The notes below the pieces were generated by a model. That model ran no database searches, was not told the DNA's origin, and worked only from the letters and a program-made list of their open reading frames with translations. Both the position numbers and the translations under genes were made by a program. 64,000 nt of DNA from Paracoccaceae bacterium (GTDB lineage Bacteria > Pseudomonadota > Alphaproteobacteria > Rhodobacterales > Rhodobacteraceae), in contig JASJAU010000009.1 in the NCBI GenBank assembly GCA_030066855.1, positions 1 through 64,000 on the forward strand, given 5' to 3'. This document shows positions 1,009-43,929 of this stretch, one piece after another (the stretch's first letter is position 1; the number at the start of each line of letters is the position of its first letter).

Positions 1009-2385
1009 ATGAAGGTGATCATCTGCGGCGCGGGCCAGGTCGGCTGGCAGATCGCGCGACACCTGTCCGGCGAGCGGAACGATGTGACGGTCGTCGACAA
1101 TAATGCCGATCTGGTGCGCCGCGCGACCGACACGCTGGACGTGCAGGGGATCGCCGGGCATGCCAGCTATCCTGACATTCTGGACCGCGCGGGCGCGGGC
1201 GACGCCGACATGGTCATCGCCGCGACCCATTCCGACGAGGTCAATATGGTGACCTGTCAGGTGGCGCATTCGGTCTTCGCCGTGCCGCGCAAGATCGCCC
1301 GGCTCCGCGCCCAGAGCTATCTGACCGCGATCTATTCCGACCTGTACAGGCGCGATCACATGCCAATCGATGTGGTCATCAGCCCCGAGCGCGAGGTTGC
1401 GGAAGCCGCGCTCAGGCGATTGAGCGCGCCGGCGGCGTTCGACACAGAAACGTTTCTTGGCGGAAAGGCGATGCTTCTCGGCATCCAACTCGATGAGGAC
1501 TGCCCGGTTCTGAACACGCCGCTTCGGCAGCTGACCGACCTCTTCTCGACCCTCCGCGCCATCGTGGTCGGGATCCGCCGCAAATCCCGACTCTTCGCGC
1601 CCGAGCCGGGGGATCAGCTATTCGACAACGATCAGATCTATGTTCTCGCGCATAGCGAGGATCTGGAGCGGACCTTCGATATCTTTGGTAAGCCGATGAC
1701 CCGGCAAGAGCGAGTGGTGATCGTGGGCGGCGGCAATGTCGGCCTTGCGGTTGCGGAAGCGCTCGAGGGCCGGACTGACCGGTTGAGAGCGAAGGTAATC
1801 GAAAAGAACCGCCTTTGCGCGGAGCGGGCCGCCGACGCTCTGGAGCGGACCATCGTCTTGCATGGCGACGGGCTGAATATGGAGCTCTTGGCCGAAGCGG
1901 GCGTTGACAGGGCCGACGCCATTCTTGCGGTGACGGACGACGACAAGACGAACCTTCTGGCCAGCGTCCGCGCCAAGCAGGCCGGTTGTGGCATGACCAT
2001 CGCGCTGGTGAACGACCCCACGCTTCTGCCGCTGATGGAACCTCTCGAAATCGACGCCTACATCAACCCGCGCGGCACCACCGTGTCGTCGATCTTGCGA
2101 CATATACGGCATGGACGGGTGCGCGGCGTCTACTCCATCGGAGACGCCGAGGCGGAGGTGATCGAGGCGCAGATCCTCTCGACCTCGCCACTGGCCGGCA
2201 AACGTATAAGGGACATCGATTTTCCGGAGGGCGTGCTGGTGGGCGCCGTGATGAAAGGCGAGGAGGTCGTAAAGCCGACGGGCGGCACGTTGGTCGAAGA
2301 GGGCGATGTCATCGTGGTCTTTTCGCTCGCCGCTGACGTGCCCGAGGTCGAGCGCCTGTTTCAGGTCTCGATCGACTTTTTCTGA
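1009..2385 (+). CDS. trkA: Trk potassium uptake regulatory subunit TrkA
   Basis: Cytoplasmic NAD-binding subunit that gates the TrkH potassium channel. The 458-residue protein has the usual duplicated architecture: two RCK modules, each starting with a Rossmann glycine motif (GAGQVGWQIA near residue 7 and GGGNVGLAVA near residue 240), each followed by a TrkA-C domain. Length is normal for the family. The stop codon overlaps the start of trkH (TGATG), so the two subunits are probably translationally coupled. A 165-base leader separates it from ntrX. Confidence 0.96.
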   Translation: MKVIICGAGQVGWQIARHLSGERNDVTVVDNNADLVRRATDTLDVQGIAGHASYPDILDRAGAGDADMVIAATHSDEVNMVTCQVAHSVFAVPRKIARLRAQSYLTAIYSDLYRRDHMPIDVVISPEREVAEAALRRLSAPAAFDTETFLGGKAMLLGIQLDEDCPVLNTPLRQLTDLFSTLRAIVVGIRRKSRLFAPEPGDQLFDNDQIYVLAHSEDLERTFDIFGKPMTRQERVVIVGGGNVGLAVAEALEGRTDRLRAKVIEKNRLCAERAADALERTIVLHGDGLNMELLAEAGVDRADAILAVTDDDKTNLLASVRAKQAGCGMTIALVNDPTLLPLMEPLEIDAYINPRGTTVSSILRHIRHGRVRGVYSIGDAEAEVIEAQILSTSPLAGKRIRDIDFPEGVLVGAVMKGEEVVKPTGGTLVEEGDVIVVFSLAADVPEVERLFQVSIDFF

Positions 2386-3887
2386 TGAGCCGCCTTCTCG
2401 GGCTGCCCTTTATCGTTCTCCTGATGGGGATCGGGGCGCTGGCGATGTTGGCGCCCGCCGTTCACGCGTACATAGCAAGGGATCTCGAGACGGCGCGGGA
2501 CTTCTTTTATTCCTCCATTCTCGCGCTCGCCTTCTTCTCGATGATCGCGATCGCCACGTCGAATTATCGGATCCGGCGGCAGGCGCGGAGCCATCTGATC
2601 TCGATGCTTGGGTTCTTCACAGGCCTGCCGCTACTCCTGGCCGTGCCGTTTTCCGAGGCGGTGCCGGACACAACGTTCCTCAACGCCTATGTCGAGATGG
2701 TCTCGAGCCTGACGACGACGGGTTTCACCCTTTTCGAGGCCGATCGCCTGCCGCCTTCTGTCCATCTCTGGCGGGCGCTGGCTGGCTGGCTGGGCGGGTT
2801 CTTCGTTTGGGTCACGGCGGTGGCGGTACTGGCGCCTTTGAACCTGGGCGGGTTCGAGGTGGCGTCCTCTCAGGAGGTCGGGCAGGGCGCTACCGGCTCA
2901 ACCGTGCAAATCGACCGGGTTGCCGACGCCTCCGAGCGGCTCTGGCGGTTCTCCGTTCAGTTCTTTCCGGTTTATGGCGGTTTGACGGCGGTGCTTTGGA
3001 TCGCGCTGATGCTGGCCGGAGACGCGCCGTTGGTGGCTATCTGCCATGCCATGTCGACACTCGCGACCTCAGGAATCACGCCGGGCGCCGCAACGTCGGG
3101 ATTTGCCGGGGAGGCCATCGTCTTCGTCTTTCTGATCTTCGCGCTGTCGCGGGTAACGTTCTCGCCAGAGGCGCAGTCTCGCCGCGTGTCCTCCTTGGTG
3201 GAAGACCCGGAGCTTCGGCTCGGACTCGCCATCATCGCCGCGCTGCCCGTGTTGCTGTTCCTGCGCCATTGGGTGGCGGTTTTTGACGAGGACACGGTCG
3301 TCACGCTTCGCGAGGGGATGATCGGCCTTTGGGGCGCGGTCTTCACCATCGCCTCATTCCTTACGACAACGGGATTCGAAAGCGCCGGATGGGAATCCGC
3401 CCGTGCCTGGTCGGGTCTCGAGGCGCCGGGTGTACTGCTGGTGGGGCTGGCCCTCTTTGGCGGTGGCGTGGCGACGACAGCGGGCGGGGTCAAACTCTTG
3501 AGAGTCTATGCGCTTTACAAGCACGGTCTGCGGGAGATGGAAAAGCTGGTCCAGCCGTCCTCGATCGGCGGCGCGGGTCAGGTGGCGCGCCGGTTCCGGC
3601 GGCAGGGCGCGTTCTATGCCTGGGTCTTCTTTATGCTCTTCGCGATATCCATCGCGCTTGTGTCCACATTGTTCGCGGCCTCGGGAGTGTCCTTCGAGGA
3701 CGCGATGGTCCTGACCATCGCCGCTCTGTCCACGACCGGCCCGCTGGCGCAGGTCGCGACCGCCGATCCGATTTCGCTGGGGAACTTGAACGATGCAGCG
3801 AAGGCGGTTCTGACGGCGGCGATGATCCTCGGCCGGTTGGAGACGCTGGCAATCATCGCGCTCCTCAATCCCGAGTTCTGGCGCTAG
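2385..3887 (+). CDS. trkH: Trk potassium uptake channel subunit TrkH
   Basis: Inner-membrane potassium-translocating subunit of the TrkAH system. The 500-residue hydrophobic protein shows the four P-loop repeats of the family: SLTTTGFT near residue 106, TLATSGIT near 222, FLTTTGFES near 322 and ALSTTGP near 445. Each carries the glycine of the selectivity filter. It starts inside the trkA stop codon. It should act with TrkA in ATP/NAD(H)-gated potassium uptake. Confidence 0.95.
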   Translation: MSRLLGLPFIVLLMGIGALAMLAPAVHAYIARDLETARDFFYSSILALAFFSMIAIATSNYRIRRQARSHLISMLGFFTGLPLLLAVPFSEAVPDTTFLNAYVEMVSSLTTTGFTLFEADRLPPSVHLWRALAGWLGGFFVWVTAVAVLAPLNLGGFEVASSQEVGQGATGSTVQIDRVADASERLWRFSVQFFPVYGGLTAVLWIALMLAGDAPLVAICHAMSTLATSGITPGAATSGFAGEAIVFVFLIFALSRVTFSPEAQSRRVSSLVEDPELRLGLAIIAALPVLLFLRHWVAVFDEDTVVTLREGMIGLWGAVFTIASFLTTTGFESAGWESARAWSGLEAPGVLLVGLALFGGGVATTAGGVKLLRVYALYKHGLREMEKLVQPSSIGGAGQVARRFRRQGAFYAWVFFMLFAISIALVSTLFAASGVSFEDAMVLTIAALSTTGPLAQVATADPISLGNLNDAAKAVLTAAMILGRLETLAIIALLNPEFWR

Positions 3888-38785: not shown

Positions 38786-43071
<4,286 letters not shown>

Positions 43072-43099
43072 TCTGTACTAACTCATTTTGTTCGCTTTT

Positions 43100-43114
43100 G
43101 TTCTCAAAAAGTTC
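43100..43114 (+). promoter_or_regulatory. LexA-type SOS box (GTTC-N7-GTTC)
   Basis: GTTCTCAAAAAGTTC matches the alphaproteobacterial LexA consensus GTTC-N7-GTTC exactly. A third GTTC lies at 43090-43093, with a spacing one base too short. The site is in an AT-rich gap, 84 bases before a 39-residue membrane peptide gene that is followed by a terminator. An eight-base pattern is expected about twice in 64 kb on both strands by chance, so placement is the real support. Confidence 0.55.
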
Positions 43115-43197
43115 TTTACTTGGGCGCTCCAATTTGAGAACAAAGTGTTAACACAGCAGCCCGCCCGCTGCCTGACCTGAACGAAGGACATTGACCG

Positions 43198-43317
43198 ATG
43201 CAGGATTTGAAAGCCGCTATCGCCCGCAGCCCCGGTTTGCTCGCTCAAGACTTCGCAGGCGCCGCCGCGCTTGCCCTGATCCTCATCGTCGGGCTGAATC
43301 TGCCTGTCCTGATGTGA
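43198..43317 (+). CDS. 39-residue membrane peptide, probably LexA-regulated
   Basis: ATG-initiated frame of 39 codons with GAAGGA about eleven bases upstream. It has an amphipathic N-terminal half (MQDLKAAIARSPGLLAQD) and one hydrophobic segment (about residues 20-38, AAALALILIVGLNLPVLM), so a short single-pass membrane peptide. I recall similar short peptides starting MQDLK and ending in a G-L-x-L-P turn in other Rhodobacteraceae; none has a role I know. A LexA-type box upstream suggests SOS induction, like the unrelated 29-residue SidA division inhibitor of Caulobacter. Function is inference. Confidence 0.65.
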   Translation: MQDLKAAIARSPGLLAQDFAGAAALALILIVGLNLPVLM

Positions 43318-43437
43318 ACCCTCTGCCTGCGGTCTGGAAGACCGGCCACGCATCCTGTCCCCATTTGTGATGCACTGACCTGTCCCAAACACGGCTCTGT
43401 CCCGAGCCGCTGCCGGTCCCGAACCAGATACGCCACT

Positions 43438-43475
43438 GACGCCGCCTTCCTCACGGATGCGCGGCGTCTTTTTTT
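43438..43475 (+). terminator. Intrinsic terminator
   Basis: Stem GACGCCGC / GCGGCGTC enclosing a 15-base loop, followed by seven T. It faces right and closes the transcript of the 39-residue peptide, leaving about 120 bases of untranslated sequence. It ends just before the stop codon of the converging Fe-S scaffold gene. Confidence 0.75.
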
Positions 43476-43476
43476 G

Positions 43477-43929
43477 TCAGGCGCAGCTTTGCCGGGCTTC
43501 GGCCTCGCCCGCCGCTTCCGCCGTGGCTTCAAGCGCCAGAAGGATCGAGGCGTGCCGGTTCTTGAAATCGCGCGCCGGCACGAGGACGGAATAGTCATCG
43601 AAAGGCGGGGCGGGGACTTCGCCGTCTTCCTTGAGCATGGCCCTCAGATCATCCCGCGCGGCCTCGATCTCGGCCCGTGTCCGTCCGATCACGTTCGCCG
43701 CGAGAATGGCGGCCGAAGCCTGGCCCAAGGCGCAGGCTTTCACGTCCTGACCGAAGCGCGAGATGCGCCCGTCGGTCACGTCCAAATCTACCGTCACCGT
43801 GGAGCCGCAGAGCGGCGAACGCTTCTTCACGGTCGCTTCCGGGCTCTCAAGACGCTCGGCCAGCGGGATGTCCGCGGCGAGCTCCAGAATGCGTCCGGAG
43901 TAAAGCTTTATGAGGTCGGTGTCGGCCAT
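43477..43929 (-). CDS. Iron-sulfur cluster assembly scaffold (IscU/NifU-like)
   Basis: 150-residue protein of the NifU N-terminal / IscU-SufU-like family. Conserved cysteines are seen in SPLCGSTVTVDL near residue 41, in KACALGQASA near residue 68 and in the C-terminal QSCA. The third position is unlike classical IscU, so ligand set may differ. ATG 43929 is the supported start; the frame upstream runs opposite hisI. Divergent from hisI. Confidence 0.85.
   Translation of the reverse strand: MADTDLIKLYSGRILELAADIPLAERLESPEATVKKRSPLCGSTVTVDLDVTDGRISRFGQDVKACALGQASAAILAANVIGRTRAEIEAARDDLRAMLKEDGEVPAPPFDDYSVLVPARDFKNRHASILLALEATAEAAGEAEARQSCA

Follow-up and report, generated by a model that had tools for sequence, protein, structure and literature searches.

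A probable LexA-controlled gene behind recG in Rhodobacteraceae, encoding a predicted membrane peptide and a structured 3′ UTR RNA

The short reading frame behind recG in the window, i.e. the whole 64-kb stretch of DNA that was analysed, raises the question of whether it belongs to an SOS-controlled gene and, if so, what such a gene would do. All features are on the plus strand unless stated otherwise. The recG gene (40,981–43,071; RecG_wedge and RecG_dom3_C matches) is followed by a LexA-type operator, GTTCTCAAAAAGTTC, of the form GTTC-N7-GTTC at 43,100–43,114, and an extra GTTC half-site at 43,090–43,093 completes a GTTC-N6-GTTC-N7-GTTC arrangement. A ribosome-binding site, GAAGGA, is read in the sequence at 43,183–43,188. 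The frame itself runs from the ATG at 43,198 to the stop ending at 43,317 and encodes a 39-aa predicted membrane peptide with one hydrophobic segment, SOS-regulated as judged by the motif. The operator with its third GTTC, the short frame with its ribosome-binding site and the adjacency of recG had all been claimed in the original prediction and were recovered as described. The prediction had also put a terminator after the frame. A strong intrinsic terminator of the peptide/RNA transcript does exist, but it sits ~120 nt beyond the stop codon, at 43,438–43,475. Two features had been overlooked, namely a reverse GAAC at 43,138 (followed by seven bases and TAAC) and a structured RNA in the 3′ UTR (43,323–43,441).

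A pattern count within the window alone gives the box no significance: GTTC-N7-GTTC occurs three times against 2.19 expected, 40 of 100 shuffles contained as many, and the other two sites are located inside long ORFs. The significance of the box instead derives from its conservation across orthologous loci. Pooling gave 143 loci, reduced to 125 distinct ones when exact repeats were dropped; these were picked by peptide similarity, not by the box, and as best matches represent the better-conserved part of the family. All 125 carry GTTC-N7-GTTC within 200 nt of the peptide start, at a distance of 68–107 nt, compared to four sites in 479,187 bases of flanking DNA (largely coding, mostly recG). 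Retention of the box at orthologous loci of related Rhodobacteraceae, the first check proposed for this locus, was thus found throughout. recG lies directly upstream in each of these loci, and the three-half-site arrangement is kept in 117 of them.

The operator is directly abutted by TTTACT (43,115–43,120), and GAGAAC is found further downstream at 43,136–43,141. On the minus strand, a weaker operator-like element, GAAC-N7-TAAC (43,138–43,152), probably overlaps the −10 region. Its counterpart, GAAC-N7-(C/G)AAC and mostly GAAC-N7-CAAC, is present downstream in 121 of the 125 distinct loci; the window, where this second element is degenerate (TAAC), is among the four without it. The TTTAC columns (alignment positions 15–19) are 94–99% conserved, with TTGAC instead in some divergent relatives (L215, L220). 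Around the peptide box, conservation falls sharply on either side of the blocks TTTGTTCRCAAAT, GTTCTYAAAAAGTTCTTTAC and ATGAGAACAAA...GCAACA. As these conserved blocks bracket the TTTAC/TTGAC element, LexA would cover the promoter. The promoter region shows no canonical −10, and it is from sequence that we infer both the −10 position and the probable role of TTTACT as −35.

Comparison with other SOS promoters strengthens the assignment of the operator. The genome of the window holds one match each to lexA and recA. A GAAC-N7-GAAC motif immediately precedes the start of lexA, and recA is preceded by GAAC-N7-GAAC plus an imperfect GTTC-N7-GGTC, a two-element layout shared with the peptide promoter. 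Among 19 family genomes, the perfect motif was found upstream of lexA in 18/18 and of recA in 16/19, counted in either orientation within 335 nt, with matches belonging to other families and lexA matches scoring below the family cut-off set aside; one incomplete genome gave no lexA match, and three recA loci have no perfect box. Because the motif also precedes lexA and recA in the family, the box of the peptide gene is very probably a LexA operator, and the claim of SOS control is strongly supported by this family-wide comparison. In seven of the 18 lexA promoters (L263, L265, L266, L267, L268, L272 and L279), a second perfect GAAC-N7-GAAC, shifted by 11 bases, overlaps the first, resulting in a triple direct repeat with an 11-base period; the triple of the peptide promoter differs from it by one 10-base step.

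The distribution of the gene was followed by similarity searches. A tblastn search with the peptide matched 74 of 100 family genomes at E ≤ 1, the weaker of which may be chance matches, and the 30 top-scoring loci (E up to 6.7e-4) were all situated just downstream of recG and all preceded by the box. Profile A1 matched 271 of 292 genomes of the order at E ≤ 0.01, with a second match in seven of the 271. In all 125 distinct loci, a peptide of 39–43 aa is encoded directly after recG. The gap downstream of recG was read in 20 of the 21 profile-negative genomes; 17 of them contain the box together with a short, divergent ORF, which is 31 aa long in nine. These nine relatives (L208–L211, L213, L216–L219), all of genus g24, encode a shortened peptide without the N-terminal part. 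In L221 the box is present and no ORF was found, and L206 and L207 have neither box nor ORF behind recG; these three profile-negative cases imply that loss of the gene is possible. Named records in which it was found comprise Ruegeria (including a Ruegeria pomeroyi strain, L156), Leisingera, Sulfitobacter, Rhodovulum and other Rhodobacteraceae, and the family is called Rhodobacteraceae for this reason. Two class-wide profile searches yielded no convincing relatives outside the family: profile A1 matched 20 of 285 genomes at E ≤ 0.1 (none below 0.008) and profile A7 207 of 381 at E ≤ 1 (none below 0.007), in both cases weakly and partially, and at the 24 outside-family loci examined (L302–L325) no LexA box was present within 250 nt upstream of where the match should begin. 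A peptide gene that forms part of the core SOS genes of Rhodobacteraceae is the best explanation of the locus. A mobile or phage origin was considered and rejected, as one query peptide gave no match in phages and a search of viral contigs gave none either; plasmid records contained a single match, on a 1.6-Mb Pseudorhodobacter replicon. Assignment to a known protein family was likewise rejected, the window peptide having no Pfam or NCBIfam match.

The frame evolves under purifying selection. The median dN/dS was 0.29 (range 0 to 1.07) over 44 non-overlapping pairs, drawn from 94 ORFs of 40 codons and limited to 0.2 < dS < 1.5, and differences at codon positions 1, 2 and 3 numbered 407, 233 and 594. 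Coding conservation, another check suggested at the outset, is thereby established. In the comparison with the only other genome of the genus, synonymous sites were saturated, hence no dN/dS ratio is given for this pair. Across 113 distinct peptides, D-x-x-G is invariant, none has K, R, D or E after the D, and 109 end on an L/I/V-P near the C-terminus (LP in the window). The best 19-residue hydropathy mean ranges from 1.78 to 2.63, and 97 of the 113 carry a net charge of +1 to +3 N-terminal of the D. The D and the G remained invariant in 22/22 rows after 13 divergent forms had been added. The core of the peptide, as read from these alignments, is made up of D-x-x-G followed by a predicted transmembrane helix free of charged residues and, at the end, L/I/V-P. 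AlphaFold2 in single-sequence mode predicted helices at residues 3–10 and 12–38 (mean pLDDT 84.3, pTM 0.44). By the positive-inside rule, the data fit a predicted single-pass membrane peptide with its N-terminus inside. The expectation that recG is adjoined by a conserved peptide crossing the membrane once is strongly supported by the family comparison, with the membrane location being predicted. Taken alone, LexA control combined with a membrane peptide is close to certain on these sequence grounds.

The second product of the locus became apparent downstream of the frame. No consensus fold (0 pairs) emerged when diverse 3′ UTRs were aligned with MAFFT. A covariance model, R1, was built from the narrower alignment A4 of 16 sequences from Ruegeria and near relatives and then searched over other loci. 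At E ≤ 0.01 it matched 37 of 92 other sources; every match is on the coding strand and begins between 1 and 80 nt past the peptide stop. In these 37 non-training rows, 85.4% of the cells were paired compared to 67.5% in shuffled controls, changes on both sides occurred in 29 of 31 pairs compared to 20.1, and the covariation score was 0.433 against 0.167 for shuffled and ≤0.089 for slid alignments; it should be noted that fitting the covariation alignment to the model biases the result towards the structure. From those 37 sequences a second model, R2, was built; it matched 24 of the 55 remaining sources at E ≤ 0.1 (18 of them at E ≤ 0.01), among them the window at 43,323–43,441 (E 2.4e-5, 338 kb searched). 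Together, both models account for 61 of 92 sources, 55 of them at E ≤ 0.01, and the 22 second-round matches in the pooled set begin 0 to 110 nt past the stop. Among the 20 profile-negative loci (L204–L223), R2 matched L218 alone, where the match starts inside the ORF by coordinates and is doubtful. In 61 whole genomes, searched with strict filters by which weak matches are lost, R2 gave a single match in each of 14 at E ≤ 0.1, and 13 of these matches were at the peptide gene.

The RNA is drawn as a closing stem with inner hairpins and UGYCY motifs, which in the window lie at 43,324, 43,356, 43,381 and 43,398. Including the terminator, the window RNA folds with −60 kcal/mol (z −4.23); without it (43,318–43,437), the value is −39.1 kcal/mol (z −2.79) and none of 200 shuffles was as stable. 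Over 45 loci, UGYCY occurs 4.1 times per RNA compared to 0.93 in shuffled sequences, a figure in which one copy is built in by the way the segments were cut; without the first 9 nt, the numbers are 3.1 and 0.82. Rfam searches of 43,060–43,700 in the window (E up to 10) returned five matches, all below the gathering score, and those of 14 loci (E up to 1) returned seven, all sub-gathering Ysr141 matches on the recG side with none over the 3′ UTR. The segment at 43,323–43,441 is a conserved structured RNA that shows covariation and to which no Rfam family could be assigned. Pairing of the 5′ UTR with its own 3′ RNA was examined and found no support, the cognate pairing being stronger in just 20 of 45 cases and no better than between loci.

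Combining these elements, LexA would bind the operators overlapping the promoter behind recG and keep the gene off, as motif and conservation suggest. LexA cleavage triggered by RecA would then allow synthesis of a short transcript, by our estimate ~330 nt, encoding a peptide of 31–43 aa whose short, usually basic N-terminal part is predicted to stay in the cytoplasm. The uncharged helix would cross the inner membrane so that the invariant D lies at the cytoplasmic face and the L/I/V-P at the opposite, outer end. The fixed positions of D-x-x-G and the terminal P suggest a specific, helix-to-helix contact with a membrane protein. By analogy with SidA in Caulobacter, the likeliest target would be the late divisome, with division being delayed during DNA repair. 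The 3′ UTR RNA would probably tune the stability or translation of the peptide mRNA or be released as an sRNA.

A SidA-like division brake is accordingly proposed as the likeliest function, albeit tentatively. The divisome is ranked first for three reasons: the alphaproteobacterial SidA and DidA act there (PMC4211646), the helix carries no charge, in contrast to those of TisB and DinQ (PMC8309996), and the gene is chromosomal with a fixed place behind recG; the recG neighbourhood as such says nothing about division. SidA of Caulobacter crescentus is a 29-aa SOS division inhibitor (PMC4211646), and the peptide described here would likewise be a tiny, LexA-controlled, single-pass inner-membrane peptide of an alphaproteobacterium. 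The likeness is one of description: the lengths differ (39–43 aa here, 31 aa in nine divergent loci), the bacterial group is another, and the available text of the SidA account contains no structured 3′ UTR, which is present here (PMC4211646). DidA, also from Caulobacter crescentus, has 71 aa and binds FtsN (PMC4211646). It is similar in being a small single-transmembrane protein produced upon DNA damage, but is SOS-independent (DriD), whereas the promoter analysed here contains LexA boxes. sulA is reported to be absent (PMC4211646).

The conserved D-x-x-G and terminal P fit a specific partner that is not necessarily part of the divisome, and the peptide may instead be an SOS-induced modulator of another inner-membrane protein, such as a transporter, a protease, a component of secretion or of DNA uptake, or the CckA phosphorelay. 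In this bacterial group LexA has been tied to cckA and gene transfer agents, and the SOS response was reported to affect the CckA phosphorelay in Rhodobacter capsulatus (PMC6473078, citing earlier work). Conversely, the neighbourhood indicates no partner besides recG, and unrelated SOS-induced division inhibitors, namely yneA, divS, chiZ and sidA, recur elsewhere (PMC4211646), a recurrence that makes a division role the first guess. We consider a non-division target possible, if on the unlikely side.

The division-brake reading can also be extended to the RNA. The transcript might serve two functions: it would encode a division-arresting peptide, and its covarying multi-loop RNA would work in trans through the repeated UGYCY loops, either as a sponge or as a base-pairing sRNA; this combination is regarded as somewhat unlikely. 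If true, a membrane effector and a programme of post-transcriptional control would be switched jointly by DNA damage throughout Rhodobacteraceae. The Cuckoo/CcsR-type sRNAs of Rhodobacter are structured, contain a repeated C-rich loop motif, CCUCCUCCC, and are made with a small-protein mRNA. They thus share with the present RNA its structure, repeated loop motifs, a small-protein mRNA and occurrence in Rhodobacteraceae. They differ in that the motif here is UGYCY (CUGUCCC, CUGCCU), the promoter is LexA-type and the 3′ UTR has no Rfam match; neither CCUCCUCCC nor CCTCCTCCC was found in the window copy of the RNA.

An RNA-controlled toxin is the next reading to be weighed. TisB (29 aa) and DinQ (27 aa) are SOS type I toxins of E. 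coli (PMC8309996, PMC3567139). Following their example, the peptide would be SOS-induced, insert in the inner membrane and lower the membrane potential, leaving damaged cells tolerant and non-growing; its translation would be limited either by the structured 3′ UTR or by another RNA that has escaped notice. Size class, LexA control, a single transmembrane helix in the inner membrane and control at the RNA level would be in common (PMC8309996, PMC3567139), and the conserved structured RNA on the transcript is in line with this. However, TisB is described as amphiphilic with a charge pattern and the DinQ helix contains E17 and R20 (PMC8309996), and antisense RNAs are known for both, whereas the helix is free of charge after the D in 113/113 peptides here. 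The specific invariant residues rather suggest a protein partner, the gene is always behind recG (125 loci) and absent from the phages and viral contigs searched, and the cognate 5′ UTR–3′ RNA pairing, stronger in only 20 of 45, speaks against this mode of control. A toxin of this kind appears unlikely.

Strong covariation (0.433 compared to 0.167 shuffled), the excess of UGYCY repeats (3.1 compared to 0.82) and a terminator of its own would be expected if the RNA were the main SOS-induced product, acting in trans via its repeated loops, with the frame as a minor or stabilising leader. Purifying selection on the frame, its retention at loci with a reduced or undetected RNA (the 31-aa forms) and the lack of any known trans target render this very unlikely. 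Finally, a chance box before a spurious ORF, compatible as it is with the chance-level count in the window, is rejected on the grounds of conservation across orthologous loci (box in 125/125 loci, median dN/dS 0.29, profile matches in 271 of 292 genomes) and is given virtually no weight.

In the open-access literature searched, no recognisable description of the peptide or the RNA was found. The available text of an in-silico LexA study of Dinoroseobacter (PMC6473078) does not name the gene, and its main text does not contain recG. The same holds for recG, helicase, LexA and SOS in the main texts of the sRNA surveys of Ruegeria pomeroyi and Paracoccus denitrificans; an anonymous entry in the supplementary position tables of these two surveys is possible. 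As the peptide has no Pfam or NCBIfam match and the RNA no Rfam match, annotation may well miss both. From the comparisons above, the peptide gene is probably part of the DNA-damage response of Rhodobacteraceae and possibly, by analogy, a division brake. Such a nearly family-wide candidate makes the coupling of DNA damage to division or membrane physiology directly testable in this family.

Two further boxes were noted in the same genome. On a short contig (L093), GTTCTCATTTCGTTC at 1,515–1,529 lies ~480 bases before a serine recombinase gene (ORF 2,013–3,767, with PF00239 and PF07508); another predicted frame overlaps this box, which may have arisen by chance. In L095, the box GTTCTTATTTTGTTC at 2,118–2,132 on the minus strand is located immediately upstream of a gene for a 361-aa Radical SAM protein (PF04055; 1,021–2,106, minus strand), which on the basis of this motif is likely a further member of the LexA regulon.
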